Counted from the first letter of the stretch, positions 43,529-63,950 are shown. The stretch: DNA of 64,000 nt from Fibrobacter sp. (GCA_017412605.1 JAFPWY010000003.1:186001-250000), one strand, 5' to 3'. The notes: a model not told the origin generated them from the letters alone. A program made the numbers and translations.

Positions 43529-45034
43529 ATGCTCAGTCAAAAACGAAAACTCCACTTGACATCTGGATTTGCGTTGTTCCTGCAAATCTTTACGATTGTA
43601 TATGGATTTATTCTGCCGAGGCTTTTCCTTGAATACTTCGGTTCTGCTGTCAACGGGCTTGTTTCGTCAATTACGCAGTTCCTTGGTTTTATTGCGTTGG
43701 CTGAATGTGGTGTGGGGGCTGTTGTTCAATCTGCTCTCTATAAGCCGCTTGCCCAAAAAGATGCAGGTGAGCTTTCGAGGATTATTGTTGCTGCGGAGCA
43801 TTTCTTTAGGAATATCGCGAAGCTCTTGCTTGTATATACCGCAGTTCTTGTAATCATCTACCCGAATATCGTCAATGGACAATTTGAATTCATTTACACA
43901 GCATCTCTTATCTTAATCATTGCGATTAGTTCTTTCGCTCAGTATTATTTCGGGATAACATATAGGTTGCTTCTCTTTTCGGACCAATTTGGTTTTGTTC
44001 CGATTATTGTACAGATTGTTGCGCTCTCTTTGAATCTCGTTGCCAGTGTTGGCTTGATGAAGTGGGGCGCGTCCGTGCATATTGTCAAGCTTGCTTCATC
44101 CGTTGTTTTCTTGCTGCAACCATTGACGGTTTCGTTTATTGCTCGCCGTTGGCACAAGATTGACAGAACGGTTGCGTTTGACAAGTCTGCAATCCCGCAA
44201 AAGTGGAATGGACTTGCTCAGCATATTTCTACGGTGGTGCTCCAGAGTTCCGGTATTGTCGTCTTGACAGTTCTCTCTACGCTGGAAAATGTATCCGTTT
44301 ATGCGATTTATAGCCTCGTTGTGCATGGTGTCCGCAATTTGACGATGTCCGTCACGAATGGCATACAGGCGTTTTTGGGGAACCTCTTTGCAAAAGGGGA
44401 TATGACTGCATTCAAAAGTAATTTTGAAAACTTTGAGTGGAAGTTGCACTTTGTCGTCTCGCTAGTTTTTGCATCTACGGCCGTGCTGATAGTCCCGTTT
44501 GTTGGAGTCTATACACATGGGATAACCGACGCGAACTACATTGTTCCTGTATTCGGAATTATGCTGACGGCAGCGTGGGGGATGTATTGTATTCGACTTC
44601 CGTACAATATCGTTGTTTTGGCCGTCGGGCATTACAAGCAGACCCAGGCGAGCGCGATTATCGAAGCCGTCCTTAACCTCGTGACCGCAGTCGTCCTCGT
44701 CCTGAAATTCGGCCTGGTCGGCGTCGCCGTCGGAACCCTGGTCGCGATGGTCTACCGGACCTGTTACCTCGCGTGGTACATCTCCAGGAACGTGATAAAC
44801 CGCAGCCTCTGGGCCTTCGTGAAACACCTGTGTGTCGATGCCATCGCCGTAGCTGCATTTCTTGGCCTTACGACCAATGTTCTTGGCCCAATTACCGAAA
44901 TCACAGCCTCTTCCTATCTTGACTGGATGATTGAAGCCGTTAAAGTCCTGATTCTAGGAATCGCCTCTGTCGGACTCGTAAACGCAATATTCTACGGCCG
45001 TAGAATCACCACGCTGCTGAAAAAGAAAAAGTAG
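43529..45034 (+). CDS. Polysaccharide flippase (Wzx, MOP superfamily)
   Basis: The 501-residue protein has 12 to 14 membrane segments, starting LHLTSGFALFLQIFTIVYGFILPRLFLEYFGSAVNGLVSSITQFLGF, the usual beginning of Wzx flippases. It moves lipid-linked repeat units across the inner membrane. The gene starts four bases after the previous stop. The region 44640-44830 is much more GC-rich than what precedes it. The segment coding VYRTCYLAWYISRNVINRS is shared almost base for base with a truncated second copy at 52184, so the gene is probably a recombinant. Confidence 0.9.
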   Translation: MLSQKRKLHLTSGFALFLQIFTIVYGFILPRLFLEYFGSAVNGLVSSITQFLGFIALAECGVGAVVQSALYKPLAQKDAGELSRIIVAAEHFFRNIAKLLLVYTAVLVIIYPNIVNGQFEFIYTASLILIIAISSFAQYYFGITYRLLLFSDQFGFVPIIVQIVALSLNLVASVGLMKWGASVHIVKLASSVVFLLQPLTVSFIARRWHKIDRTVAFDKSAIPQKWNGLAQHISTVVLQSSGIVVLTVLSTLENVSVYAIYSLVVHGVRNLTMSVTNGIQAFLGNLFAKGDMTAFKSNFENFEWKLHFVVSLVFASTAVLIVPFVGVYTHGITDANYIVPVFGIMLTAAWGMYCIRLPYNIVVLAVGHYKQTQASAIIEAVLNLVTAVVLVLKFGLVGVAVGTLVAMVYRTCYLAWYISRNVINRSLWAFVKHLCVDAIAVAAFLGLTTNVLGPITEITASSYLDWMIEAVKVLILGIASVGLVNAIFYGRRITTLLKKKK

Positions 45035-45040
45035 CGTCAT

Positions 45041-45475
45041 CCGGGCAAATTTTTTACAGAAATTTAAGGACAAAAAGTCGATCTGAAACGTCCATTCGCA
45101 TGGGACCCTTCCATGTTTACACCTTTTTTCAAAAATGGCAGGACAAAAATCCGGTTTGAAACGTCGCTATCCCCGGGATGAAGCCCTGCCTGGCCATCCG
45201 ACCTGCCGGCGGGGGAGGTAAACATCTTTTTGCGAATTTTCCAGGACAAAAACCGGATTTCAAACGTCTATATATGCGTATTGCCCGAACTGCGCCGTTC
45301 CCATCCCCGTCACGCGAGATGCCACGGAACGCAACCCTTTCCGTATCCAACAAAACCACTCCTTGATTAAGAGAATTAGATATACGAGGCCGCCTACATG
45401 CGAACCCGCCCCGTTTACATTTTTTAAAAAAAAATCCGGACAAAAAGCCAATCTCAAACGTCTATATATACGTCA
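45041..45475. repeat. Left flanking repeat of the defence module, four GGACAAAAA...AAACGTC units
   Basis: The 263 bp at 45041-45303 recur almost unchanged at 49386-49647. Inside, a smaller motif repeats: a T-rich stretch, AGGACAAAAA, about eight variable bases, then AAACGTC. It occurs at 45068, 45141, 45244 and 45437. From 45304 to 45613 no gene is visible. Unit spacing is irregular (about 73, 103 and 193 bp), so it is not a CRISPR array. Confidence 0.85.
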
Positions 45476-45613: not shown

Positions 45614-46897
45614 ATGTTGAAAATAAAAGTACATGATGAATATAAAATCCGTGAAGATTTTTTTTTAGAATTAAAAAAATATATGAACCAAAAAAAATTT
45701 TCACTAGAACAAGACTTTAAAATACAAAATAAAGGGCGAATTGATTGTTGCATTCTTGATTCTCGAAAAAAACCTTATGTATTTATTGAATTTAAGAGTT
45801 TATTAAATAGTTCTTTTGCTCGTAAAAGCGGGAAAAAACAACTTCTTGATTATCTTGAACAAGTAAAAGAGAAACCAACATTCTCTATTTTGACGGATGC
45901 AAAAAAAAGATTTTATCTTTATAAAACATCTCAGGAAGAGAATCAATTTAAAAAACTTTCTTTTAATCAACTTGTAACAACTCTATTCCCTGAAGCCGAG
46001 AATTTATTTGTTCCTAAAAATTATACGATTATTAAGAATCTTTTGGATGAAAATAAACTAAATTATCCCGGTTTGGGAAAAAAAGATATTGTGTATGAAA
46101 ATGGAGCTTTTTCTTTTGTAGGAGAGTATAAAGATTTCATTGCAAATCGATTTCCTTCGTTTAATACAAACGAAAAAATTGTTTGTAGATATCTTTCTTT
46201 AGAAACTGCTTTTAAGATTATAAAAAATAAATCTTTAAAAATGAATTGTATTATAGGAATGAATGATTCTACAGAACCAGATTTTATTGAATCAATGCTT
46301 TATGACGGAATGGATAAAATACCAGGATTGCAAAGGCTTGCTAGAAATGTCTATATAATGTCCTGTAGTTCTGAAAAAACAATTGATAATTTGACGCATT
46401 GGCGCTTATATGGAAATGATGCAAAAGGAGTTTGTTTAGTTTTTAAGGTAAAAAAATTGAAAGAGAGTCGTTTTAAATTGGGAAAGGTTTCTTATTTAGA
46501 TAGAGATTTGCCAATTGAATCAATTGAAAAAATAAATACTTTTTTTGAACAGATCTTGGCAAAAACAAAAATTCCTTTTGCACCATACGATTTTCATAGT
46601 TGGGCCCATTTTTACAAACCCCTAGAATATAAGATTGAAAAAGAAATTAGATTGGTGTTTGTAAATGATGGTATGAAGGATAAAGAATGGATTTTATCTG
46701 AACAATTTAATATAGTTAATTCATCTATTGATGTTTCGTTAATGGAAGATGATTTTCCACTGGAGTTATGTCAAGTTATTCTTGGATCGAAATGTCCTGA
46801 ACGCGAAGTAAATAAAACACAATTTGAAGTTCTTTTGGAAGAATCGGGAATGGAAGAAGTTAAAGTTAAGCTTTCAACAATCAATTCGTATAGATAA
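45614..46897 (+). CDS. Defence-type protein: N-terminal PD-(D/E)XK nuclease fused to DUF2971
   Basis: The 427-residue protein opens with a nuclease-like domain (about residues 1-120): GRIDCCILD with Asp44, then PYVFIEFKS with Glu59 and Lys61, and Gln76 in a following helix. This is the order of HSDR_N/PD-(D/E)XK enzymes. The second part (about 185-400) fits DUF2971: ICRYLSLETAFKIIKNKSLK, MNDSTEPDF, VYIMSCSSEKTIDNLTHWRLYGNDAKGVCLVF. DUF2971 function is not known. The gene is very AT-rich, preceded by AAAGGAATAGC, and followed 61 bases later by an AAA_13-type ATPase, so I infer a two-gene antiphage or abortive-infection module. Confidence 0.72.
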   Translation: MLKIKVHDEYKIREDFFLELKKYMNQKKFSLEQDFKIQNKGRIDCCILDSRKKPYVFIEFKSLLNSSFARKSGKKQLLDYLEQVKEKPTFSILTDAKKRFYLYKTSQEENQFKKLSFNQLVTTLFPEAENLFVPKNYTIIKNLLDENKLNYPGLGKKDIVYENGAFSFVGEYKDFIANRFPSFNTNEKIVCRYLSLETAFKIIKNKSLKMNCIIGMNDSTEPDFIESMLYDGMDKIPGLQRLARNVYIMSCSSEKTIDNLTHWRLYGNDAKGVCLVFKVKKLKESRFKLGKVSYLDRDLPIESIEKINTFFEQILAKTKIPFAPYDFHSWAHFYKPLEYKIEKEIRLVFVNDGMKDKEWILSEQFNIVNSSIDVSLMEDDFPLELCQVILGSKCPEREVNKTQFEVLLEESGMEEVKVKLSTINSYR

Positions 46898-46958
46898 AAG
46901 AATGGTGATTCTATAACAGAATGAGAAGAATGCCAAAGAACAAAGGTAAGGAGTAAAA

Positions 46959-49187
46959 ATGATAAAGAAAATTACAATGGATGGGTATGCGTCTTTTAAA
47001 CAACCAACCATTCTTGAAACGCAAAAAAAAGTAAATCTTATATATGGATTAAATGGTGTTGGCAAAAGTACAATATCGAATTTTTTGTACAACATCCATG
47101 ATGAATGTTTTGATAAATGTAAAATAGAATATGATATAGGAGATGAAAATTCCTATGAGTTTCACGTATTTAACAACCAATTTATTACAGATAACTTTTA
47201 TGAAGAAAAACTTAAGGGTGTGTTTACGTTATCTGGTGAAAATAAGACTGCTTTGCAAAATATAAAAAATGCAAAAACAGTTATAGAGGAAAAAGAACAA
47301 GATATTATTGCTTTGAATGATGAGATTTCAAGAAAACAATCGGAACTACGCGCTGTACAGCAGCAAACCAATAATGCCATTTGGGAGATAAAGACGAAAT
47401 ATTCTGATTCTGCTAATCCGCTAAATTATTGCTTAGATGGATTAAAGTCGGATAAACAGAAATTGTATGAATTTATTAAGTCGGTGCATTTACCTGAAAT
47501 AAAGCCTCAAAGAGGTATAGAGGATATTTCTAGAGACGCATCGTTATATAATAAAAAAGACAAGGTTCCGATTGTGCCATTATCTAAGATTGCAGGGGCA
47601 TTTGAAAGTGTTGAAGAAGATCCTTTGCTAAAAAAACATATAATTGGTGGAACAGATAGCGTTGTTTCAAATCTTATTAATGAAATTGAATGCTCTGATT
47701 GGGTGAAGAAGGGCGCTAATTATCTTGATAGATTAATTCAGAAGGGACGAAACGTGTGTCCTTTTTGCCAGAGTGAAATAAATGCAAAGGTTCTTGCGGA
47801 AAATATAAAGAAATATTTTGATGATTCATATGAGAAAGATGTCGCTGGCATAGAAGTCCTTTATACAAAGTATACGCAGCTTGTTGATTTAGTGACTAAT
47901 TGTGAAGATATTCTTGTGCAAAACGAACATTTGCTTGGAATATATCAACCTCAATATGTCTCTGCTTTTGCTGAATTAAAGGGTGTTCTTCAGGATAATG
48001 TTCGTAATCTTGAAGAAAAGAAAAATAATCCGGGAAATCAAATAGAATTAATCAAAACAAGCGATAAAATTGACAAACTTAATTCTGTGGTTGATTTGAT
48101 AAATAATGAGATAGTGAAGTTTAATAAAAATCTTTCTGAATCAAATAAAATATTAGTGGAATTAAAAAAAGAATTTTGGGCTTTGATGCGATATGAAAAA
48201 GACGGTCTATTAAATGAACTTGAAGGATTATATGAAAGTTGTAAAAACTTTTGTCAAAATAAAAATAATGATATAATAGATAGACAAAACGAAATAAAAA
48301 GACAACAAATGATTATTTCCTCTGAAGAGAAGAAAGTTGTTAATGTACATGAGGCTATTAATCATATTAATAGCGGGCTTTTAGATATTGGAATAACAAA
48401 TTTTAAAATCGTTGAAGCTGATAATGATATGTATCAAATAGAACGCGAAGGCTCTCGCTCAAATATTTTTAAAAGTCTTAGCGAGGGCGAAAAAATGATG
48501 ATTAGTTTACTTTATTTTATTGAAACATGTAAAGGAAATATCGCCAGAGAAACGGGTTCAAAAAGAAAAATTGTTATTATAGATGACCCTATTTCAAGTC
48601 TTTCGCATATTTATGTTTTTAATGTTGGAATGTTGTTGAAGAAAATTTTTACAAGTGAAGATCCTTTAGATGAGAAAAATACAAAAAAATATGAGCAAAT
48701 ATTTTTGTTAACGCATAATATGTATTTCTTTTATGAAATGGCTATTCCTCATAAAAGGAATTCCAACGGTAATGAAAAAGAGAATAACCAAGCATTATTC
48801 CGCATAAAAAAGTTGGATTCTACGAGTTATATCGTCCCGATGAAGTATAATGAAATTCAAAATGAATATGAATCATACTGGTCTGTTGTTAATTCGCAAG
48901 ATGTAAATCCGATATTACAAGCGAACTGTATGCGTAATATTATTGAATATTTCTTTGGTTTTGTGGAAAGAAAACAATTGAATACTGTTATGTCTATAAA
49001 AAAACTACGTGACCCGAAATATCAAGCCTTTTATCGATTTATTAATAGAGAATCTCATTCGGAAACTCAGAATATTTTTGATTTTAAGGAATATGACCCA
49101 GAAATCTTTAAAGAGGCTTTTAAATCTGTATTTGTGGAAAACAATTATGAAAAACATTACAATGAAATGTCCTCATTAAAGTTTTAG
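46959..49187 (+). CDS. AAA_13/RloC-like SMC-type ATPase with CxxC zinc hook
   Basis: The 742-residue protein has Walker A GLNGVGKST (residues 30-38), a coiled-coil middle containing VCPFCQSEI (Cys267, Cys270), an ABC signature SLSEGEKMMISLLYF, Walker B IVIIDDPISSLS and a switch LLTHNMYFF. This resembles RloC and Rad50-like ATPases with a zinc hook. The C-terminus (CMRNIIEYFFGF, FINRESHSETQNIFDF) is that of AAA_13 proteins, and I do not see the PrrC/RloC anticodon-nuclease triad with confidence. Nuclease activity may instead come from the upstream PD-(D/E)XK-DUF2971 partner. Ribosome-binding site AAGGTAAGGAG. Confidence 0.8.
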   Translation: MIKKITMDGYASFKQPTILETQKKVNLIYGLNGVGKSTISNFLYNIHDECFDKCKIEYDIGDENSYEFHVFNNQFITDNFYEEKLKGVFTLSGENKTALQNIKNAKTVIEEKEQDIIALNDEISRKQSELRAVQQQTNNAIWEIKTKYSDSANPLNYCLDGLKSDKQKLYEFIKSVHLPEIKPQRGIEDISRDASLYNKKDKVPIVPLSKIAGAFESVEEDPLLKKHIIGGTDSVVSNLINEIECSDWVKKGANYLDRLIQKGRNVCPFCQSEINAKVLAENIKKYFDDSYEKDVAGIEVLYTKYTQLVDLVTNCEDILVQNEHLLGIYQPQYVSAFAELKGVLQDNVRNLEEKKNNPGNQIELIKTSDKIDKLNSVVDLINNEIVKFNKNLSESNKILVELKKEFWALMRYEKDGLLNELEGLYESCKNFCQNKNNDIIDRQNEIKRQQMIISSEEKKVVNVHEAINHINSGLLDIGITNFKIVEADNDMYQIEREGSRSNIFKSLSEGEKMMISLLYFIETCKGNIARETGSKRKIVIIDDPISSLSHIYVFNVGMLLKKIFTSEDPLDEKNTKKYEQIFLLTHNMYFFYEMAIPHKRNSNGNEKENNQALFRIKKLDSTSYIVPMKYNEIQNEYESYWSVVNSQDVNPILQANCMRNIIEYFFGFVERKQLNTVMSIKKLRDPKYQAFYRFINRESHSETQNIFDFKEYDPEIFKEAFKSVFVENNYEKHYNEMSSLKF

Positions 49188-49194
49188 AAGTTTG

Positions 49195-49647
49195 AAACGT
49201 CGCAATTCTTGGGATGAACCCCCGCTAGGCAATCCGACCTGCCGGCGGGGAAGGTAAACATCTTTTTGCGAATTTTCCAGGACAAAAACCGGATTTCAAA
49301 CGTCTATATATGCGTGTTGCCCGAACTGCGCCGTTCCCGTCCACGTCACGCGGGATGCCACGGAACGCGTCCACCCCCTAGAACGCCGGGCAAATTTTTT
49401 ACAGAAATTTAAGGATAAAAAGTCGATCTGAAACGTCCATTCGCATGGGACCCTTCCATGTTTACACCTTTTTTCAAAAATGGCAGGACAAAAATCCGGT
49501 TTGAAACGTCGCTATCCCCGGGATGATGCCCCGCCAGGCCACCCGACCTGCCGACGGGGGAGGTAAACATCTTTTTGCGAATTTTCCAGGACAAAAATCG
49601 GATTTCAAACGTCTATATATGCGTATTGCCCGAACTGCGCCGTTCCC
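49195..49647. repeat. Right flanking repeats of the defence module (one partial and one full copy)
   Basis: 49195-49373 repeats the second half of the left repeat (TTGAAACGTCGC through CACGGAACGC). 49386-49647 is a full copy of 45041-45303 with only scattered substitutions. The repeats start within ten bases of the ATPase stop codon, so the two-gene module is bracketed by direct repeats. Bases 49648-49743 are non-coding. Confidence 0.85.
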
Positions 49648-49743
49648 TTCGCCAATAAAATGGGTGTATATCCGCTTCAGGGGTATGTTAGGTAGGAAAT
49701 ATAGTGGGGAAAGTAAGTTCGGCATTGGCGATATCGAGAAAAC

Positions 49744-52119
49744 TTACACAATAAGGTTCTTTTTTTGCTGCATCAGGAATCTCACACAATCCACAGAAAA
49801 CTCCTCCTTCCTGTACATCGCGTCGACATACTGATCAAATTCTGCATTACTTAAATGCGCAGATTTTACCATTTCAAGTTCTTTTTTGAAATTTTGTGGA
49901 ACAAAAGAAATTTCAAAAGGATCTTTTTTTGGGGGCGGATTCATTTCGTTTTGAGTATTGACCATTTTTTTATTTTTTTCAACAAAAGAAATCATGGTGT
50001 CAATATCTTTTCTAACTGATTCTGTTACATTCTGTTTTAAGTTCTGTAGTTTTTCGGTCAATGAATCAAATATCAAATAATTGAGTTTTTCGTCATTGCC
50101 TATAATCTTAAAATCTTTTTCTTCAAGTAGGCCAACATTGCGCGTATCAACAAAGCCATATCTCGACATTCCATTCAAAAAAAGTACGAGAAATTTTTGA
50201 TATTCGGGGTTCGCATTCATATTTCCAACAATATTCTGTTCGTTGAATATCTTCAAAATGTGCAAATACACATCTCTTCTTATTCCCCAGCATAAATTTA
50301 GACTTTTTATTAGCTCATAACTAATAGTATGCACATTTTCTTTTTTGATATAAAAATCCAACAGACGGTTGAATACACTGGAATCTTCTTCGTGTAATAC
50401 AAAAGCGGGCAATAACGTGTAAAACCAATCAACAGTATATCTCATGATAGTTCTATTATCTCTTTTAGAAGATAAATTATGATACAAAGATTCCATGAAG
50501 GCGTGAAAGTTTGCTTCTAGATTATCGTCATTTTTGTTAAGGACGTGTTCTATGAATTGTAATCTTGCGTTTTCTAAATCAGTATATTCTGATTTTCCGC
50601 GCCAACGTAAATAACGAATCAACCTGTCAATTTTATCATTATGTTCCTGAGATTTCATGACTTTGATATTTTCGAAGTTGTCGTCAAACTTTTTCATTTC
50701 CCTATCAATAAGGACATCAAGTTTGTAGTCAAAGATGCGGAAAAGGGCAAAGGCAGTCTCATTATATATATCTTCCATAAATCTTTGAGAATCCTGAATT
50801 TGCATTTCAGGGATATCCTTTATGGCGATAGATTCCCCTTTCCAGTTAAACAATTTAAGTTTGCTAAAAGGTGTGGCAACATCTATCTTTTTGTATATTT
50901 CATAAACAAAATGCTTTGTGAAATAATAGGCATAAACGGCCCTGGCATTCTGTTTTAGCGGTGGCGTGTCTAGGGCCGAATTAACATCATTTAAATACAA
51001 TTTTACTCTTCGGATATTTACACCATTGGGGACAAAGTTAATGGTTAGGTCGGCGTTAAATAATTTCTTAGTGTAATACTCTGTATAAAAAGGAGTGAAA
51101 ATGTCCTTCAATATTTTCGTGTCAATATTCGGTAAAGAGCGTTTCTCGTTTTCATATACCCGCTCTATTGTGGTGCGTAAGGAAACAGGAGTCAAGTCTA
51201 CAACATAGGGAATATATTTTTCTATATAATAACGATCTTGTTGGAGAAGATTCAGCAAATTATTTTCGTTATAAAGGAATAGAACCTTGATGTTTTCGTT
51301 TAAACTGGTTAGTTGTTCTGATAAATAAAATATTTTTTCAACGATAGATTTTTCAGAAACTCTATCAAGATCTTCTATTGCAATAAGAAGTTTTTTGTCG
51401 AGGCGACAAATTTCTGATTTTAGAGATTGAATTAAATTGGTATATGAATCTTGCCCCCATAGGAAGTTCGCAAGCCACGACCAACTAGAATCCTTCAAAA
51501 GTCTTTTAATTCTGGTCGTTGAAGTTGAAAAATAGCCGTTGTTTTCAAGTGCATGACCAAGTTCTGAAATAAAATAACTTTCTATGGAGTCAACAGTCGA
51601 TGCCATTGCTTCGATTGTTACAAAATGGAACTTCTCGTTAAGCCTGCTTTTTAGAATGTTGAAAAGATAAGTCTTTCCTCCTCCCCATGGTGCATTGATG
51701 CCTACAACATTAATCTTTTCAAGATATTCTTCAATTTTATCTAAATCGTATTTTCTTTCAAAAAAATAGTTTGGAAGTTCTTTAGCTTTTTTATTCTTGT
51801 ACATATTTTTTGCTATAAGTCTGCAAATTTCAATAACAACAGCTAATCCAGATAATGCGGCAATTATATACCATACGCAACAGCTGCAATTAGAACTAAA
51901 GAAGTGAATCAGGGCAAAAGCAATTATCGCAGGGATACAAATAGTAAGCCAAAGCTTTTTATTTCGTGATATGGGATAAACAATGATTAAAATTGCAAAT
52001 ACGCAAAAAAATATTATGAGGTAGTAGCGGTAGTTTACCCCTGGTATGTAAAACAGGATTGATGAAAATATCGATCCAACAAATAAAGAAATGAAAAAAT
52101 GCTTTAAATTATGCATCAT
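49744..52119 (-). CDS. KAP-family P-loop NTPase with N-terminal membrane segments
   Basis: The 791-residue protein starts with four hydrophobic segments within the first 105 residues (HFFISLFVGSIFSSILFYI ... WYIIAALSGLAVVIEI). A KAP NTPase domain follows: VVGINAPWGGGKTYLFNIL (Walker A, PWGGGKT) and KLLIAIEDLDRVSEKS (Walker B), with further VLFLYNENNLLNLLQQDRYYIEKYI. The C-terminal half is helical. KAP NTPases with membrane segments occur in phage-defence and exclusion settings, consistent with its position in this island. It is on the opposite strand from the preceding module, with stops facing each other. Confidence 0.8.
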   Translation of the reverse strand: MMHNLKHFFISLFVGSIFSSILFYIPGVNYRYYLIIFFCVFAILIIVYPISRNKKLWLTICIPAIIAFALIHFFSSNCSCCVWYIIAALSGLAVVIEICRLIAKNMYKNKKAKELPNYFFERKYDLDKIEEYLEKINVVGINAPWGGGKTYLFNILKSRLNEKFHFVTIEAMASTVDSIESYFISELGHALENNGYFSTSTTRIKRLLKDSSWSWLANFLWGQDSYTNLIQSLKSEICRLDKKLLIAIEDLDRVSEKSIVEKIFYLSEQLTSLNENIKVLFLYNENNLLNLLQQDRYYIEKYIPYVVDLTPVSLRTTIERVYENEKRSLPNIDTKILKDIFTPFYTEYYTKKLFNADLTINFVPNGVNIRRVKLYLNDVNSALDTPPLKQNARAVYAYYFTKHFVYEIYKKIDVATPFSKLKLFNWKGESIAIKDIPEMQIQDSQRFMEDIYNETAFALFRIFDYKLDVLIDREMKKFDDNFENIKVMKSQEHNDKIDRLIRYLRWRGKSEYTDLENARLQFIEHVLNKNDDNLEANFHAFMESLYHNLSSKRDNRTIMRYTVDWFYTLLPAFVLHEEDSSVFNRLLDFYIKKENVHTISYELIKSLNLCWGIRRDVYLHILKIFNEQNIVGNMNANPEYQKFLVLFLNGMSRYGFVDTRNVGLLEEKDFKIIGNDEKLNYLIFDSLTEKLQNLKQNVTESVRKDIDTMISFVEKNKKMVNTQNEMNPPPKKDPFEISFVPQNFKKELEMVKSAHLSNAEFDQYVDAMYRKEEFSVDCVRFLMQQKKNLIV

Positions 52120-52183: not shown

Positions 52184-52474
52184 TGGGTTTATCGCGGACA
52201 GGTCGGCTACTTGGCGTGGTACATCTCCAGGAACGTGATAAACCGCAGCCTCTGGGCCTTTGCGAAACACCTCTGCGTGGACGCCTGCTCGATCGCATTG
52301 TTCGTCGGCCTGGTGTACTATGTCCTGGGCCCGATCCAAGAACTGCACGCGACCACTTACTTCGGCTGGAGCATATTGGCACTCAAGACAATCGCCCTGG
52401 GCATCCCCGCAATCGCCACCGTCAACACCGTGTTCTACTATCCCAAAATCACCCGATACATAAAGAAACAGTAA
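52184..52474 (+). pseudogene. 3' relic of a Wzx flippase gene
   Basis: From about 52184 the frame reads VYRGQVGYLAWYISRNVINR, then SLWAFAKHLCVDA, and runs to a stop after YYPKITRYIKKQ. It matches the intact flippase from residue 408 on, with the first 80 bases nearly identical at DNA level. No signal or N-terminal part exists upstream, where the KAP gene begins. It marks the far edge of the block inserted next to the capsule locus. Confidence 0.8.
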
Positions 52475-52541
52475 CGAATTTCAACCAAAAAGGCAAATTT
52501 ACCGATTTTACCCCAGAAAATAGCAGGGAAGGGGCAGACTC

Positions 52542-53165: not shown

Positions 53166-56100
53166 TTAAGGGTGTTCTTTCAGATTAATACAGATAATAC
53201 GGATGTTATTCTTGTATTTGCCTGTTACACATTCTTGCAATTCTTTTTGAAGTTTGTCTGAGCTCTTTTTAAAGCAGAAAACTAAATAGATGCCATAACT
53301 GACATGTGTGTGTTCTAGATACTTCGTTATAAGTTGGTCATTAATGGCTGTTTTCAGACTTGGATTTTTATCAACTTTGCATTCTACGCGGACCGTATAT
53401 TCTTCTTTCTCTCTCCATTTTATGTTGATGTCTGCTCGGTTGTCACCGATAAGGTGTTCTCGTGTTGCTGTGGCGATTTTGTCGTAACGATCTCGCCAGC
53501 GTTGAACGAGAATATTTCGACACTGATTCTCATCACCTTTGGTTAGCATAAATATTTCTTTTTGATTGTCTTCTCCATTTTCAATATCATCTTTAATTGA
53601 TTCAATTTTTTCGCATACATCTATCCAAAAGTCACGATCGCTTGAGTATGTCTTACTGAAAAGGAATTCCTTTGCCTGCTTAATGTCAATAGATGTAATA
53701 GAATTCTCGTTGTTCTTTTTTGTTTCCAATTCGTATATTTTGCTTTGAATACGGTTTGTCCAATAATCGTTTGGATGTTTGTCTTTGAGATTTTCTAGGA
53801 TATTTTTCCATTTAGGTTCGTCCATCTGGTTCCACATTGTATGGTTGACAAACCAAGCACACATGTCTTGTGATGACTGAATTCCTGAATGAAATTCGAG
53901 AGTCTGTTCATTGTTGAATGTACATAGAAATATATTTACCAGTTTAAATCGATTTTCTGAAGAAAGATGTTTGTATACATTGTTGCTTTGACTGAGCATG
54001 TTAAATAGTAAAACAGCCTCATCGATGGACCAATCATCGGAACCATCGTGGAATTTTAGGATAAGGCTTGTTTTTTTGTCAATACCTTCATTAATTTTCC
54101 CAATTTCTTTAATCAGGTTATGCGATAATGTGAGCCCATAGTTGTCAATTACATTCTTGAATAACGTTGTAGCGCATTCCTTTGCAGAAGAAGAAAATAG
54201 TCCATGTGTCAAACTCTTTGTTTTGCTTAGGCATTCTTTATTGGGCCATTTATTTTTCAATTCCAAGATGATTTTTGAAAAAATATGTTCTTTTTCAGGG
54301 AAGTTGTAGTGGATGATTTTTTTCATGTACTCCACTATTAGGGATGTTGTTTTATTAGGATTCTCTTTTTCAATAATATCACTGAAGGAATTCTTTTTTA
54401 TGTTGCCGATCCGTTTCTCAAGTAAGGATAAAATGTATAGATAATCCTTGATACTTTGGGGGCGGATTGATTTGTAATCTTTGGTAGAATTGAGACAAAG
54501 ACAGGCATAATACAGATCATCGATATTACGCCCTGCTCCAGGAGCATACTGCGCCAGTGAATCTAAAGAGAGATATTCTTTGTAGGGTGATTTTCCGATG
54601 TTTTTTAATAGATTTTTTTTCATCAATTCAAGAATCTGTTGGTATGTTTTTTTTGTTAGACCTACAGACTCCTCTTTGAATTCATTGTTTAATAGATAGT
54701 GTGGTGTTACGTAAAAAAAGAAATTCCATGCATTCTTTTTTTGTTCATCTGTTAATGTCGTAAATTTCGCTTCGTTATCTTTAATGATGTTTTGTAATCT
54801 TTCTTTGTGCTCGGCCTGGATTTTCTTGCCTTCTGATTCCATTTTCGCTATTTCTGGGTCTTTTTTCCAATAATTTCTCCAAAAATCTACTAGGCCATAC
54901 TGTTTTGCTAATTCAGTACAGTGTTTTTTGGCGATTTTTGTTGTTTCCTTCTTGTTTCGCATTCCCTCGTATATCTTTCGGAGCAAAAATTTTTTTGAAG
55001 ATAACTCAGTTTTCTTTTGAATCATTTTACTCAAAATTTCATAGCTGTTTTGGGGTAAAATGGAATTCTCTAAGTGTCGAAGGCCGAACTCTTTTTTCCA
55101 ACATTCACTAATATGATTGTCGTCTTGCGGAAGAATGAACTCGATAAATTGGACATAAAATTTCTGCTTTGTTTTCTCGTCCCATAGTTTTATCTTTTTA
55201 GAGATGTTGCTCAAGGCATTTTCTGAAAAGGATATATCAATTTTATTGTGCTGCAGTAAAATGCTGAATGCGTCTTCTGCTGTTTCTTTTTCCAACATTT
55301 CATAATAGAAATCGCCAACAAAGCATTCTAAATCGTAAGCACGACGAAATTCTCGTCTTAATTTCTCAGAATCTGAGGAAAAAATTTGCGAAACAATAAC
55401 CTTTTTATGTTCGTATGAAATATCCTTTCTTAAATATGAAAAATGACCATGATGAATTTCAGATGTTTCTTTATACATCTTTATGTAGTCTATAATTTCG
55501 TTGTATTTAATGTTTGATGGGTAAAGATATCCGATGGCTTTGTCTAATATTTCGTCATCGTAATCCTTTATCTTTTCATTAGATATTTTTTCAATAATAT
55601 TTTTTAGGTGTTTGCTATTGCCGTTTAATAATGGCAATAGACGTTTCTTGTACATGTCCTTGAGATCTGGGTCACAAATCATTAAATAGGCGAAGTCTTG
55701 CAGGTCTTTAGACGGCTTTAGGGCTGATTGCATCAAATCGCTTAGCAAGAATAGGTAATGATTGTCCTCTTTTTTAGCAGACCTGTATTCTGATATGAGA
55801 AAATTGTCTAGTTTTGGCTCATAGAATGTGTTTGGACCGTAATTACGGCCAATGGATAGAAAATAAGGTGATTCCTTTGCGAAAGTCCTTATTCCTTGCA
55901 GAACCTTCTTCTTGTTGTTAATGCTAAAAAGAGAATTGTCTCCATAAATGTACTGCCCGTAAGGATCGACTTCGAATAATTCAGCGCTTTCGGTAAAACA
56001 GCATAGCCATGCGAAAATTCCTCTATATTCAGATGCGATTTTGGTTGTTTTTGGAACCAGACATAGGGTTGTGAGTCTCTTTGTTGAGAGAACGCCTGTG

Positions 56101-57014
56101 TCTAACAAAAACTTTGCGCATAGAAATTCAGCAACGGTTCTGTGAGTGAATGTGGAGGAGGTCTCTTTTTTAAAAAGATTTGTATTTCGTACTTCCTCTA
56201 ATTTATTTTTGGAATATCCATTTGTTTCGTCTGCAATTTCAGAAATGTTTTTTTCGTCGATTTGATTCATTCCTGCGAAAATATTGTAGTATGCAAGATA
56301 ACCGGCATATTTATATATTTCATCAACGGATAAAACTGCTGAATTTTTTTGACGTTTCTTATTCTTCTCGCGTGAAGATTCTATGAATTTTTCGTAAATT
56401 TCTTTCTTTGTTTTGGGGAAAGAATTATTTTTCGTGTCCTTGTATGATTCAAGGAACATTGTTAATATTTGCGGATTATCTAAAATTGGACAGTTGCCAA
56501 TTTTTTCAAGAAAACAATCAGATGCGTTGCCTAGATGTTGCTTTGTAAGCTCAATTCGCTGTTTCACGCTTAATGGCTGGATGAAAAATACTACAGGAGC
56601 AAAATCTTTGCTGATAATCTGCAAATCTTCACTATCATACCAATCCATGGCCCTGCAGCTAAGAATAATTTTTATGTTTTTATTTTTCTTCTTGATGTTA
56701 TTTATGATGTTTTGAATATCATAGAGGGGTTTAAATTTGTCAATGCTAGAAGAACGAAGTTCGTCAAATCCGTCTATTAGTAAATAGTTTTTTTTGATTG
56801 TATATGAAATAATATCGTTCCTATAGAGAAAATCTCTTATGCTAAATAAAGCTGCATTGAATTTTTGGGCAAAATGATTGAGAAGGGTTGTTTTGCCACT
56901 TCCTGGATTGCCTAGCAAAATGACAAAGCCATTATCTATCAGGGCTTTTTCTAACGAGAATTCTTCTTCATTGCCATATTTTTTTAATGTCAAATCAACA
57001 AAAATATTGCTCAT
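53166..57014 (-). CDS. Giant NACHT/STAND-like NTPase with C-terminal PD-(D/E)XK-type domain
   Basis: Starting at the second ATG (MSNIFVDLTL, nine bases after AAGGA) gives 1282 residues. The N-terminus carries Walker A GNPGSGKTT (35-43), Walker B NYLLIDGFDELRS (about 76-88) and a KIILSCRAMDW sensor, the NACHT/STAND order, then LRVTEF-like TFTHRTVAEFLCAKFL. About 800 helical residues follow, as in STAND sensor regions. The last 100 residues contain ADINIKW (Asp1195) and VRVECKVDK (Glu1211, Lys1213), a PD-(D/E)XK nuclease pattern. Bacterial STAND ATPases sense phage proteins and trigger effectors. Most known Avs proteins carry the nuclease at the N-terminus, so this order is unusual. Confidence 0.72.
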   Translation of the reverse strand: MSNIFVDLTLKKYGNEEEFSLEKALIDNGFVILLGNPGSGKTTLLNHFAQKFNAALFSIRDFLYRNDIISYTIKKNYLLIDGFDELRSSSIDKFKPLYDIQNIINNIKKKNKNIKIILSCRAMDWYDSEDLQIISKDFAPVVFFIQPLSVKQRIELTKQHLGNASDCFLEKIGNCPILDNPQILTMFLESYKDTKNNSFPKTKKEIYEKFIESSREKNKKRQKNSAVLSVDEIYKYAGYLAYYNIFAGMNQIDEKNISEIADETNGYSKNKLEEVRNTNLFKKETSSTFTHRTVAEFLCAKFLLDTGVLSTKRLTTLCLVPKTTKIASEYRGIFAWLCCFTESAELFEVDPYGQYIYGDNSLFSINNKKKVLQGIRTFAKESPYFLSIGRNYGPNTFYEPKLDNFLISEYRSAKKEDNHYLFLLSDLMQSALKPSKDLQDFAYLMICDPDLKDMYKKRLLPLLNGNSKHLKNIIEKISNEKIKDYDDEILDKAIGYLYPSNIKYNEIIDYIKMYKETSEIHHGHFSYLRKDISYEHKKVIVSQIFSSDSEKLRREFRRAYDLECFVGDFYYEMLEKETAEDAFSILLQHNKIDISFSENALSNISKKIKLWDEKTKQKFYVQFIEFILPQDDNHISECWKKEFGLRHLENSILPQNSYEILSKMIQKKTELSSKKFLLRKIYEGMRNKKETTKIAKKHCTELAKQYGLVDFWRNYWKKDPEIAKMESEGKKIQAEHKERLQNIIKDNEAKFTTLTDEQKKNAWNFFFYVTPHYLLNNEFKEESVGLTKKTYQQILELMKKNLLKNIGKSPYKEYLSLDSLAQYAPGAGRNIDDLYYACLCLNSTKDYKSIRPQSIKDYLYILSLLEKRIGNIKKNSFSDIIEKENPNKTTSLIVEYMKKIIHYNFPEKEHIFSKIILELKNKWPNKECLSKTKSLTHGLFSSSAKECATTLFKNVIDNYGLTLSHNLIKEIGKINEGIDKKTSLILKFHDGSDDWSIDEAVLLFNMLSQSNNVYKHLSSENRFKLVNIFLCTFNNEQTLEFHSGIQSSQDMCAWFVNHTMWNQMDEPKWKNILENLKDKHPNDYWTNRIQSKIYELETKKNNENSITSIDIKQAKEFLFSKTYSSDRDFWIDVCEKIESIKDDIENGEDNQKEIFMLTKGDENQCRNILVQRWRDRYDKIATATREHLIGDNRADINIKWREKEEYTVRVECKVDKNPSLKTAINDQLITKYLEHTHVSYGIYLVFCFKKSSDKLQKELQECVTGKYKNNIRIICINLKEHP

Positions 57015-57104
57015 AAAACCCATTCCTTATAATTCGGTATATCTATGCCCCAACTCTGCTTGAAGTATTTGTAAAGCCAAATGTATTTTAATCGGACTTT
57101 GTTT

Positions 57105-58268: not shown

Positions 58269-58811
58269 ATGTCCGCATTTAAACCATTGTTCGGCAAGGA
58301 TGTCCTGATCAATGCCGCCTTGTGGGTCGCCACGAGGTTGCCCGAGGATCAGTGTCGCTTGCACAAGATTTTCAAAATCTTGTGGTTTGCGGACTTGTAC
58401 CACCTGAAAAAATACGGCAGGACCGTCACTGGCGACACGTATATCGCCATGAATAATGGACCTGTGCCGTCTGTCTTGTACGACGAGATGAAGCCGGACC
58501 CGTCGGAGGGCGATGCCTTCCGGCGTTTCGACCGCGGAAACGAGAAGGGCTTCGTGGTGCCGCTGAAGAGTGTCAATGCGGATTACCTTTCGGAGACCGA
58601 TGTCGAGGCCCTGACCTACTCGCTTAATTTGTACAAAGACAAGTCATTCGACGAATTGACCCAGTTGTCCCACAAACATGCCTGGAATTCGGCCCGGAAC
58701 GCGGGCATGAATACGTCTATCAGGATAGATGAAATCCTTGATGAGATTGGTGCGGACAGCGAACTCCGCGAATACGTAAAAGACGATATTCTCTTCAGGC
58801 AGGCGCTTTAA
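58269..58811 (+). CDS. Panacea-domain (SocA-like, DUF4065) antitoxin candidate
   Basis: The 180-residue protein shows the Panacea pattern: INAALWVATRLPEDQCRLHKIFKILWFADLYHLKKYGRTVTGDTYIAMNNGPVPSVLYDEMK, with the hallmark GxxxxxDxYxAxxxGPVxxxLY core, and C-terminal LSHKHAWNSARN. Panacea proteins are modular antitoxins paired with varied toxins; the original SocA was a proteolytic adaptor. It ends two bases before the next gene, so the pair is surely cotranscribed. GGGGAAAGG before the ATG is the ribosome-binding site. Confidence 0.82.
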   Translation: MSAFKPLFGKDVLINAALWVATRLPEDQCRLHKIFKILWFADLYHLKKYGRTVTGDTYIAMNNGPVPSVLYDEMKPDPSEGDAFRRFDRGNEKGFVVPLKSVNADYLSETDVEALTYSLNLYKDKSFDELTQLSHKHAWNSARNAGMNTSIRIDEILDEIGADSELREYVKDDILFRQAL

Positions 58812-58813
58812 TT

Positions 58814-59221
58814 ATGGAACTGCCTAAGGAGTTAACGGGGCGCTTGTATTCTGAGCGCAGTGCTGTGGTCCATTCGGAAGTCAATTCTGTTATAAAAACG
58901 GACCATGGCAAGTATTTGCTGGTTGTCAAGAAAACCGAATCGCTAGTGGTATGCTGTTCCATCAATTCGGAACGCTACCGTTTCAAGCCGGAGGAATCGC
59001 AGCCCAAGATTCTGAAGAGCGAGAACGACTTTCTGCATCACGATTCCTTTGTAGACTGTGCGCAGATCTTTGCGATAGATGTGAATGTCTTTCTGAATAA
59101 CATGAGTAAGGGCGTGTTTGTACCGGTGGGCCTGTTGAACGAAATCTCGATGGCGTTTGTCCTACGTGCGGGGCAGACCTGCCCGATGTTGAATAAGGTC
59201 GAGCAGAGTTATTTCAAGTAG
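58814..59221 (+). CDS. Partner of the Panacea protein, putative toxin of unknown family
   Basis: The 135-residue protein begins MELPKELTGRLYSERSAVVHSEV and has beta-rich sequence (KYLLVVKKTESLVVCCSINSE, SFVDCAQIFAIDVNVFLN, KGVFVPVGLLNEISMAFVLR). The arrangement of strands could fit a PemK/MazF-like barrel, but I do not see its motifs and make no assignment. Its position directly after a Panacea gene predicts a toxin. Confidence 0.6.
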   Translation: MELPKELTGRLYSERSAVVHSEVNSVIKTDHGKYLLVVKKTESLVVCCSINSERYRFKPEESQPKILKSENDFLHHDSFVDCAQIFAIDVNVFLNNMSKGVFVPVGLLNEISMAFVLRAGQTCPMLNKVEQSYFK

Positions 59222-62068: not shown

Positions 62069-63349
62069 ATGATAAGAAATTTTTGGGTAAAGAATTACCT
62101 TTCCATTCGCGACAAGCAAGAATTAAGTTTCTTGGCTAAGGGGCCCTCGTCGGAACTTGTTGCGGAAGTTGCCGATGGTGTATTCTTATATAAATTGGGT
62201 ATCCTTTATGGTTCGAATGCTTCTGGAAAATCGAACATGCTTACTGCGTTGAATGAAGTGTTCCGCATATTGGTCTTGTCGAAATCAGATGCAAGCAAGA
62301 AAATTTACGGAAGCATTCCGTTTGCTCTCACAAAAGATGAACCCATAGAGATGCATGTGTCATTCTATGCCAATGGTATTAGATATGATTATGATGTAAA
62401 GTTCAATGAAAAATACATTTTGAATGAAGCCTTGTACTATTATCCCAACAAGTCTAAATCATTATTCTATGAACGTTCATTTGTTGGCGAAAATATACAG
62501 GCCGATATCAAGTTTGGAACCAGTCTGAAACTACAGGTTAAGACCCAAGAAAGTATTCGCGAGAACACTTTGAACAACCATAGTGTTTTATCTGTTTGCA
62601 GAAAGGCCGCGCTGAAAGAGGATATTGCCCCCTTCAACGAGCTTCATCGTTGGGTCATGGACAACTATCATGATGTGGATGGCGATGGGGAAAGGGGTAT
62701 TGTTGAAATTCTAACGGAGGCTTATAATAATCCAAGGAAACGCAAGTTCTATAACGCCATGCTACAGAAGGCTGATTTGAACATTGTGGAATATCGGCCT
62801 GTTGTGGAAGATAATTTAATGCCTGCAGAATATCGAGAATACTTTCAAAGGGAAAACTTTCCCCAAAAAATGAAGGATGAATTGCTTAAGCCAACAGTCG
62901 ATTCTGTGGCATTTGTCAATCATTCTGTCGATGGCGATTTTGAAATTTCTCTTAATTGGCAGTCAAAAGGGACCCAAAAATACATCCGCATTTTAGATGC
63001 TTTATACGATATGATTACCGGCTCTCATGTGTACTACCTTGATGAATTAGGAGAGGATCTACACAATGACTTGTTGTATTATTACCTTAACGTTTTCATT
63101 TTCAATTCAGGCAAATCGCAACTGATTATCACGAGTCAGGAAACGACGCTCTTGTCTCAAGATTTGATTAATGAAAATAGAGGCGTTGTATGGTTTGTTG
63201 ATAAAAACAAAGAGACTGCATCGTCGACATATTCTCGTGGAGATTCTTTTGGATTGCATAAGAACCTATCCCTTTACAATTCATATCGCATTGGCCGACT
63301 TGGAGCTAAGCCCGAACTTGGTAGTATCTTTATAAATCTGGATGATTGA
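62069..63349 (+). CDS. RloA/AbiLi-like AAA_15/AAA_21 ATPase
   Basis: The 426-residue protein starts MIRNFWVKNYLSIRDKQELS and has Walker A GSNASGKSN (48-56), an internal coiled and helical insertion, then Walker B HVYYLDELGEDLHNDLLYYYLNVF and a LIITSQETTLLSQD switch. The order is that of RloA-type ATPases, which pair with RloB TOPRIM-like proteins in AbiL and related abortive-infection systems. The C-terminus ends GSIFINLDD, then overlaps the next gene by eight bases. It is probably cytosolic and triggered by phage infection. Confidence 0.85.
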   Translation: MIRNFWVKNYLSIRDKQELSFLAKGPSSELVAEVADGVFLYKLGILYGSNASGKSNMLTALNEVFRILVLSKSDASKKIYGSIPFALTKDEPIEMHVSFYANGIRYDYDVKFNEKYILNEALYYYPNKSKSLFYERSFVGENIQADIKFGTSLKLQVKTQESIRENTLNNHSVLSVCRKAALKEDIAPFNELHRWVMDNYHDVDGDGERGIVEILTEAYNNPRKRKFYNAMLQKADLNIVEYRPVVEDNLMPAEYREYFQRENFPQKMKDELLKPTVDSVAFVNHSVDGDFEISLNWQSKGTQKYIRILDALYDMITGSHVYYLDELGEDLHNDLLYYYLNVFIFNSGKSQLIITSQETTLLSQDLINENRGVVWFVDKNKETASSTYSRGDSFGLHKNLSLYNSYRIGRLGAKPELGSIFINLDD

Positions 63350-63950
63350 TATGGGCCAACTACGTCAAACAGTTCTTATCTTAGGTGAAGGGCCTACTGA
63401 ATTCTATTACTTCAAGTCCTTGTGCGATGTATTCAAACGTTTGACCATCAAACCAGACTCTCCAAAGCATACGAACCTAACGGAACTTGAGGCTAAGATA
63501 AAAGAGGGCATTGAATTGGGCTTCAACCATATCTTCTGCATTATCGATATGGACACGAAGGACAAAGAACCCGAACATACTCAATATCAAAAGTTGAAAA
63601 AGAAGTATGCCGAACCAATCAAAAAACCAAAGAAAGGTATTGACTGTAAGGTCGAATTTTTCGAAACACATCGCTGTACAGAGTTGTTCTTCCTTTACTA
63701 TTTCCGATACACATCGCGTCCTTATGAAAATCAAGAACAACTTTTAAATGATTTGAATCAGTGTGTGATTTACAAGAAGGCAAATGAGTTCTTCAGAAAG
63801 GGTTTGCACAGCTACTTTGAACGGAACAAAGGAAGTCTTGATAATGCAGTAGCCAATGCTGAAAGATCAATGGCGGAAAAGCAGAAGGATGAAAGAGAAT
63901 ATACATACTCGGAGTTGGGGCGATTAATGACTTTATTGAAAGAATTATAA
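63342..63950 (+). CDS. RloB-family protein (AbiLii-like, TOPRIM-type)
   Basis: The 202-residue protein begins MIDMGQLRQTVLILGEGPTE, with the conserved Glu16/Glu20 of the EGxTE motif. It continues with HIFCIIDMDTKD (DxD, about residues 66-77) and FFETHRCTELFFLYYFRYT, as in RloB-like proteins of TOPRIM fold. The start could instead be the ATG at 63351. The pair with the RloA-like ATPase is the AbiL/RloAB arrangement. The stop and the next ATG overlap as TAATG. Confidence 0.85.
   Translation: MIDMGQLRQTVLILGEGPTEFYYFKSLCDVFKRLTIKPDSPKHTNLTELEAKIKEGIELGFNHIFCIIDMDTKDKEPEHTQYQKLKKKYAEPIKKPKKGIDCKVEFFETHRCTELFFLYYFRYTSRPYENQEQLLNDLNQCVIYKKANEFFRKGLHSYFERNKGSLDNAVANAERSMAEKQKDEREYTYSELGRLMTLLKEL

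Follow-up and report, generated by a model that had tools for sequence, protein, structure and literature searches.

The window analysed in this study is a 64,000-nt stretch of Fibrobacter sp. DNA (GCA_017412605.1, JAFPWY010000003.1:186001-250000). At 45614-49187 it carries two open reading frames on the plus strand, both real and located where a preliminary description of this DNA had placed them, and these are bounded on either side by a repeat array.

45041-45462, plus strand: left repeat array, four copies of a GGACAAAAANNNGATTTNAAACGTC-type repeat (at 45068, 45141, 45244, and 45438)
45614-46897, plus strand: gene 1, ORF of 427 aa with HSDR_N_2 and DUF2971 domains, GC 27.6%
46959-49187, plus strand: gene 2, ORF of 742 aa, AAA_13 protein very probably of the RloC family, GC 29.8%
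49190-49653, plus strand: right repeat array, four further copies of that repeat (at 49280, 49413, 49486, and 49589)

The two genes are separated by a gap of 61 nt on the same strand, in which an AGGAG site is present; a plus-strand terminator-like site was sought between them and none was found. The content between the two arrays is exactly gene 1 and gene 2, whose GC contents of 27.6% and 29.8% compare with 45.6% across the upstream 43.5 kb. The segment 45041-45308 is a direct repeat of 49386-49653 (268 nt, 96.6% identity), and the right array includes a second, partial copy at 49190-49368. All eight copies of the repeat core in the 3.5-Mb genome fall inside the two arrays, and the number of copies expected by shuffling of the window was 0. 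Since both genes are AT-rich and exactly enclosed by repeat arrays that are unique in the genome, they look co-acquired, as a repeat-bounded unit visible in the sequence itself. The repeat family that bounds the cassette follows the pattern GGACAAAAA-N8-AAACGTC, and a few related copies were observed in three other Fibrobacter genomes.

A polysaccharide cluster precedes the cassette, and its last gene (43529-45034) is flippase-like as read from its sequence. In another genome (G031), these repeats also occur at the end of a similar polysaccharide cluster, together with a fragment of a flippase gene, and an AAA_15 gene comes next; the piece matching the flippase-like gene gave a weak MurJ match. 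At this locus (L147, 7303-8017), where the same repeats stand before the AAA_15 gene, pieces match 44643-44842 (94%) and 52208-52475 (98%) of the window. This arrangement suggests that the end of the polysaccharide cluster is an exchange hotspot. Downstream of the cassette lie the following genes.

49744-52119, minus strand: KAP-family NTPase, 791 aa (profile match), in the same island
53166-57023, minus strand: STAND-type NTPase (nSTAND3), 1285 aa (profile match), in the same island
58269-59221: SocA/Panacea antitoxin-like gene (E 5.6e-22), then a gene of weak PemK likeness; the two are probably a Panacea-type toxin-antitoxin pair
62069-63950: complete AbiL pair (PADLOC; AbiLi E 2.1e-59, AbiLii E 1.5e-13)

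The AbiL, STAND, KAP, and Panacea-type neighbours place the cassette in a defence island and agree with the preliminary description, which had proposed a candidate defence module, and the cassette very likely has a defence function.

Gene 2 matched AAA_13 of Pfam over nearly its full length (residues 11-725, E 2.4e-107) and the PADLOC candidate PDC-S06 over its full length (E 2.4e-217), with a weaker PADLOC match to PrrC in the C-terminal third (residues 497-735, E 4.8e-10). No functional test of PDC-S06 was seen in the literature examined. The ATPase motifs comprise a Walker A, an SEGEK signature, and an IDDPISSLS Walker B, and a CPFC zinc hook (aa 267-270) is set between long helices, for example 91-148 and 395-457. 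Structure prediction gave a head of Rad50/SMC fold (best Z 17.1); most of the Rad50/SMC structural matches leave out a helical domain at the C-terminus (predicted helices 651-738). The full-length AAA_13 match, the CPFC motif, and the Rad50-like head bear out the earlier claim of an RloC/Rad50-like ATPase with a CxxC hook. The same description held that this ATPase seems to lack a nuclease centre of its own, which proved incorrect: the C-terminal region contains an intact RloC triad, R659-X3-E663-X36-H700, with S699 preceding the histidine.

Two features define RloC: an ABC ATPase interrupted by a coiled coil that bears a CxxC hook, and the anticodon-nuclease motif that it shares with PrrC, a C-terminal R-X3-E-X36-52-H, often with Ser before the His; mutation of any triad residue abolished tRNA cleavage by RloC (PMC2610378). 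A survey of HEPN domains placed the RloC/PrrC nuclease domain in a superfamily of metal-independent RNases (PMC3710099). In an alignment of 29 relatives, R659 was conserved in 29, E663 in 26 (Asp in the other 3), H700 in 28, and both hook cysteines in 29. In a set of 84 relatives drawn from many phyla, almost every protein kept RNxxEYFF...RESH together with CPFC. Since gene 2 has the sequence features that define RloC (the triad, the hook-split ATPase, and a length of 742 aa inside the published range of 658-897 aa), it is very probably a member of this described defence family; the assignment is based on motifs, size, and architecture rather than on alignment to a protein of proven activity. 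This copy of RloC is predicted to cleave tRNA. RloC of G. kaustophilus and A. baylyi (PMC2610378, PMC3874168) shares with gene 2 the size class, the hook-split ATPase, and the triad with Ser before His, whereas gene 2, known here from sequence alone, adjoins an HSDR_N-DUF2971 gene inside a repeat-flanked cassette.

The preliminary description had likened the pair to Septu or PARIS, in which case a nuclease-less sensor ATPase would activate a separate PD-(D/E)XK-DUF2971 effector. Septu (PtuA/PtuB) and PARIS (AriA/AriB) also have an ABC/OLD-type ATPase beside a nuclease-bearing gene, and gene 2 weakly resembles PtuA and AriA. However, the PtuA and AriA scores in PADLOC were far below that of PDC-S06, the triad of gene 2 is complete and conserved, and the partner of gene 2 is an HSDR_N_2-DUF2971 protein, with neither the HNH (PtuB) nor the Toprim (AriB) partner present. 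The ATPases of Septu and PARIS are not known to have an RloC-type nuclease triad. On the basis of R659, E663, and H700, the nuclease-less reading of gene 2 was rejected, and activation of gene 1 by such an ATPase is highly improbable. Because the ATPase carries an intact anticodon-nuclease triad of RloC type, gene 2 would instead be both sensor and effector.

PrrC with EcoprrI shares with the cassette the nuclease triad, the ABC ATPase motifs, and a neighbouring HsdR-like domain. It differs in its length of 341-416 aa, in having no zinc hook, and in its linkage to type Ic R-M, and gene 2 was rejected as a PrrC by its 742 aa and its zinc hook; no hsd genes were found among the scanned neighbours of gene 2. 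This likeness raises the question of whether gene 1 silences RloC as EcoprrI holds PrrC inactive, with the HsdR-like domain substituting for the restriction enzyme, such that loss of gene 1 function in infection would unleash RloC. The HSDR_N_2 domain beside RloC recalls the arrangement of PrrC and R-M, and rloC of G. kaustophilus adjoins an hsdR relic (PMC2610378), but the activation of A. baylyi RloC is independent of R-M proteins (PMC3874168), and gene 1 has one small HsdR domain only, without a motor. A silencing role for gene 1 is thus quite unlikely.

In gene 1, the HSDR_N_2 domain covers residues 11-115 (E 2.3e-7, 31.3 bits against a Pfam cut-off of 25) and DUF2971 covers residues 263-347 (E 1.5e-6, 29.9 bits against a cut-off of 22). 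The nuclease residues can be read directly as GRI-D44...FI-E59-F-K61, so that an HSDR_N-like domain with Asp44, Glu59, and Lys61 is fused to DUF2971, as had been described. In the predicted structure, the PD-(D/E)XK domain had a pLDDT under 50, and the model was mostly confident from about residue 187 on, some loops excepted. Shedu (SduA) is likewise a PD-(D/E)XK nuclease, and in two related Fibrobacter genomes the gene that comes directly after RloC is SduA. In contrast to Shedu, gene 1 carries DUF2971, and its SduA_C/DUF4263 score was 14.9 bits against a cut-off of 27, by which Shedu membership was rejected.

No close relative of gene 1 was found in GTDB contigs (a weak test with a single-protein query and short peptide patterns), in viral contigs (with an alignment or a single protein as query), in samples of 395 and 348 genomes from two phyla (a search without a positive control), or in phage records. 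Plasmids gave one partial match, and the order to which the genome belongs gave partial matches only, in four other genomes. PDB sequence searches with both proteins returned nothing relevant, and a Foldseek comparison of the model of gene 1 with viral structures gave no informative match. Likewise, we found no description of the gene pair or of the PD-(D/E)XK-DUF2971 fusion. The opinion that the combination was an unfamiliar one stands for the fusion, of which the genomes searched gave no close relative, and falls for the other half of the pair, which matches the named system RloC; a match to a named system was among the refuting conditions set in the preliminary description. The novelty lies in the partner, in which DUF2971 is joined to a PD-(D/E)XK domain.

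In PADLOC, this DUF2971 portion corresponds to the candidate PDC-S31. In the literature searched, DUF2971 was named only in a genome re-annotation and PDC-S31 was not named. An alignment of 25 DUF2971 proteins conserved N217-D218, W263, Y266, G272, Y294, K335, E342-x-E344-x-R346, and G391. The 13 best structural matches of the DUF2971 model were all chains of the ADP-ribosyltransferase superfamily with Z at most 7.6, and although a Z below 8 alone proves nothing, the consistency of these matches is notable. They included yeast Tpt1 (Z 7.6), SopF, archaeal KptA, and DarT (four Thermus chains and one mycobacterial chain, Z 5.6-6.3); among the lower matches, cholera toxin A1 and pierisin were interspersed with unrelated gelsolin chains. 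E344 begins a predicted strand in the model, and the E-x-E motif of ADP-ribosyltransferases often sits at a strand start. The best structural matches, in the DarT and Tpt1-KptA superfamily, and the position of E-x-E are set against a profile-profile comparison with DarT, made with a small DarT set, that was not significant (hhalign probability 0.3, E 0.23). These observations suggest that DUF2971 probably adopts an ADP-ribosyltransferase fold. That it is also an active ADP-ribosyltransferase enzyme is close to a toss-up, leaning slightly against. The preliminary description had noted neither this likeness of fold nor the repeat arrays around the pair and its low GC content.

On a Segatella copri plasmid (L162, 5233-10759), a 492-aa DUF2971 protein is encoded directly upstream of a NACHT-domain gene; over its C-terminal half it shares 28.7% identity with gene 1. 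The neighbours of DUF2971 genes in other genomes (L165-L184) encode GajA-, PtuA-, RT/DnaG-, and AriA-like proteins. A defence-linked DUF2971 family is in line with such neighbours.

Co-occurrence of DUF2971 with an RloC-type ATPase gene, suggested as a check in the preliminary description, proved to be rare elsewhere: DUF2971 adjoined RloC at 1 of the 80 RloC loci, and it was present anywhere in 13 of the 48 genomes of RloC loci searched. At that locus (L033, Bacteroidales), 78 nt separate a DUF2971 gene from the RloC gene downstream of it, whose product is 42% identical to gene 2; the DUF2971 gene itself follows a YhcG-type PD-(D/E)XK nuclease gene, hsdM, and hsdS of a type I R-M locus, the latter two assigned by reading the sequence. 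Within the genus, the closest DUF2971 relative (L016) is flanked not by RloC but by HNH and AbiH/SIR2-like genes. RloC elsewhere has varied neighbours or none. The 79 same-strand genes adjoining RloC were diverse with many singletons, hsdS being the commonest (7), followed by hsdR-type genes (4), methylase genes (4), SduA (2), and AlbA_2 (2). In the two related Fibrobacter genomes (L012/L032 and L013), SduA starts 12-46 nt after RloC (L012, 7144-10606; L013, 8462-11921), and the two genes are flanked by an Eco57I-like methylase gene and a GmrSD-type gene. Since L012 and L013 share neighbours, they probably represent one lineage of the island. The RloC frame of L013 is split into two ORFs of 128 and 623 aa.

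These neighbourhoods bear on the alternative that two independent defence genes travelled together, with RloC acting by itself as an anticodon nuclease that senses breaks, while the HSDR_N-DUF2971 protein would be a separate single-gene defence factor. In its favour, PDC-S06 and PDC-S31 are each single-gene candidate models in PADLOC, unlike the pair here, RloC has no constant partner, and DUF2971 is found elsewhere near GajA-, PtuA-, RT/DnaG-, AriA-like, or NACHT genes. Moreover, the RloC described in the literature is controlled by a switch of its own and does not require R-M proteins (PMC3874168). On the other hand, the two genes have a short same-strand gap and a common low GC content, the unique repeats enclose just these two, and the adjacency of DUF2971 and RloC recurs in an unrelated phylum (L033). 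Independence of the two genes is possible, though not what we would expect.

We favour, at a probability of roughly 50%, the reading that this is a foreign defence cassette of two genes, gained by horizontal transfer and centred on RloC, with gene 1 as a partner and a layered logic. Earlier work presents RloC as a break sensor that carries an internal switch and is seldom linked to R-M; DNA breaks activate it, and it then cleaves tRNA (PMC3874168; PMC2610378). In the proposed mechanism, the Rad50-like, zinc-hooked ATPase of gene 2 would respond in infection to broken DNA or DNA ends by releasing its own putative C-terminal HEPN nuclease, which would cleave tRNA anticodons and stop translation in the infected cell. 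Gene 1 would be a co-acquired partner, in which the PD-(D/E)XK domain most likely cleaves or nicks the DNA of the invader, and the DUF2971 domain is probably an ADP-ribosyltransferase-like effector or an NAD-related sensor. The layering would most likely be that gene 1 attacks DNA first, and that the resulting ends, or phage that is not cleared, trigger RloC. Functional coupling of the two genes is plausible, at slightly less than an even chance. A stronger form is a genuine system of two enzymes: a PD-(D/E)XK nuclease fused to a hitherto unrecognised ADP-ribosyltransferase family (DUF2971) would be coupled to RloC. This form, in which DNA cutting, ADP-ribosylation, and tRNA anticodon cleavage would make up one layered abortive response, is rather unlikely.

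A DNA nuclease beside RloC appears to recur, which would fit the activation of RloC by DNA ends (PMC3874168), and the nuclease genes found next to it (HSDR_N-DUF2971 and SduA) suggest a source of the breaks that trigger RloC during infection. If DUF2971 is an ADP-ribosyltransferase, a common defence-island family of unknown function would gain a predicted activity. Should the cassette be a true two-enzyme system, DUF2971 would be a widespread ADP-ribosyltransferase effector that pairs with different sensor ATPases.
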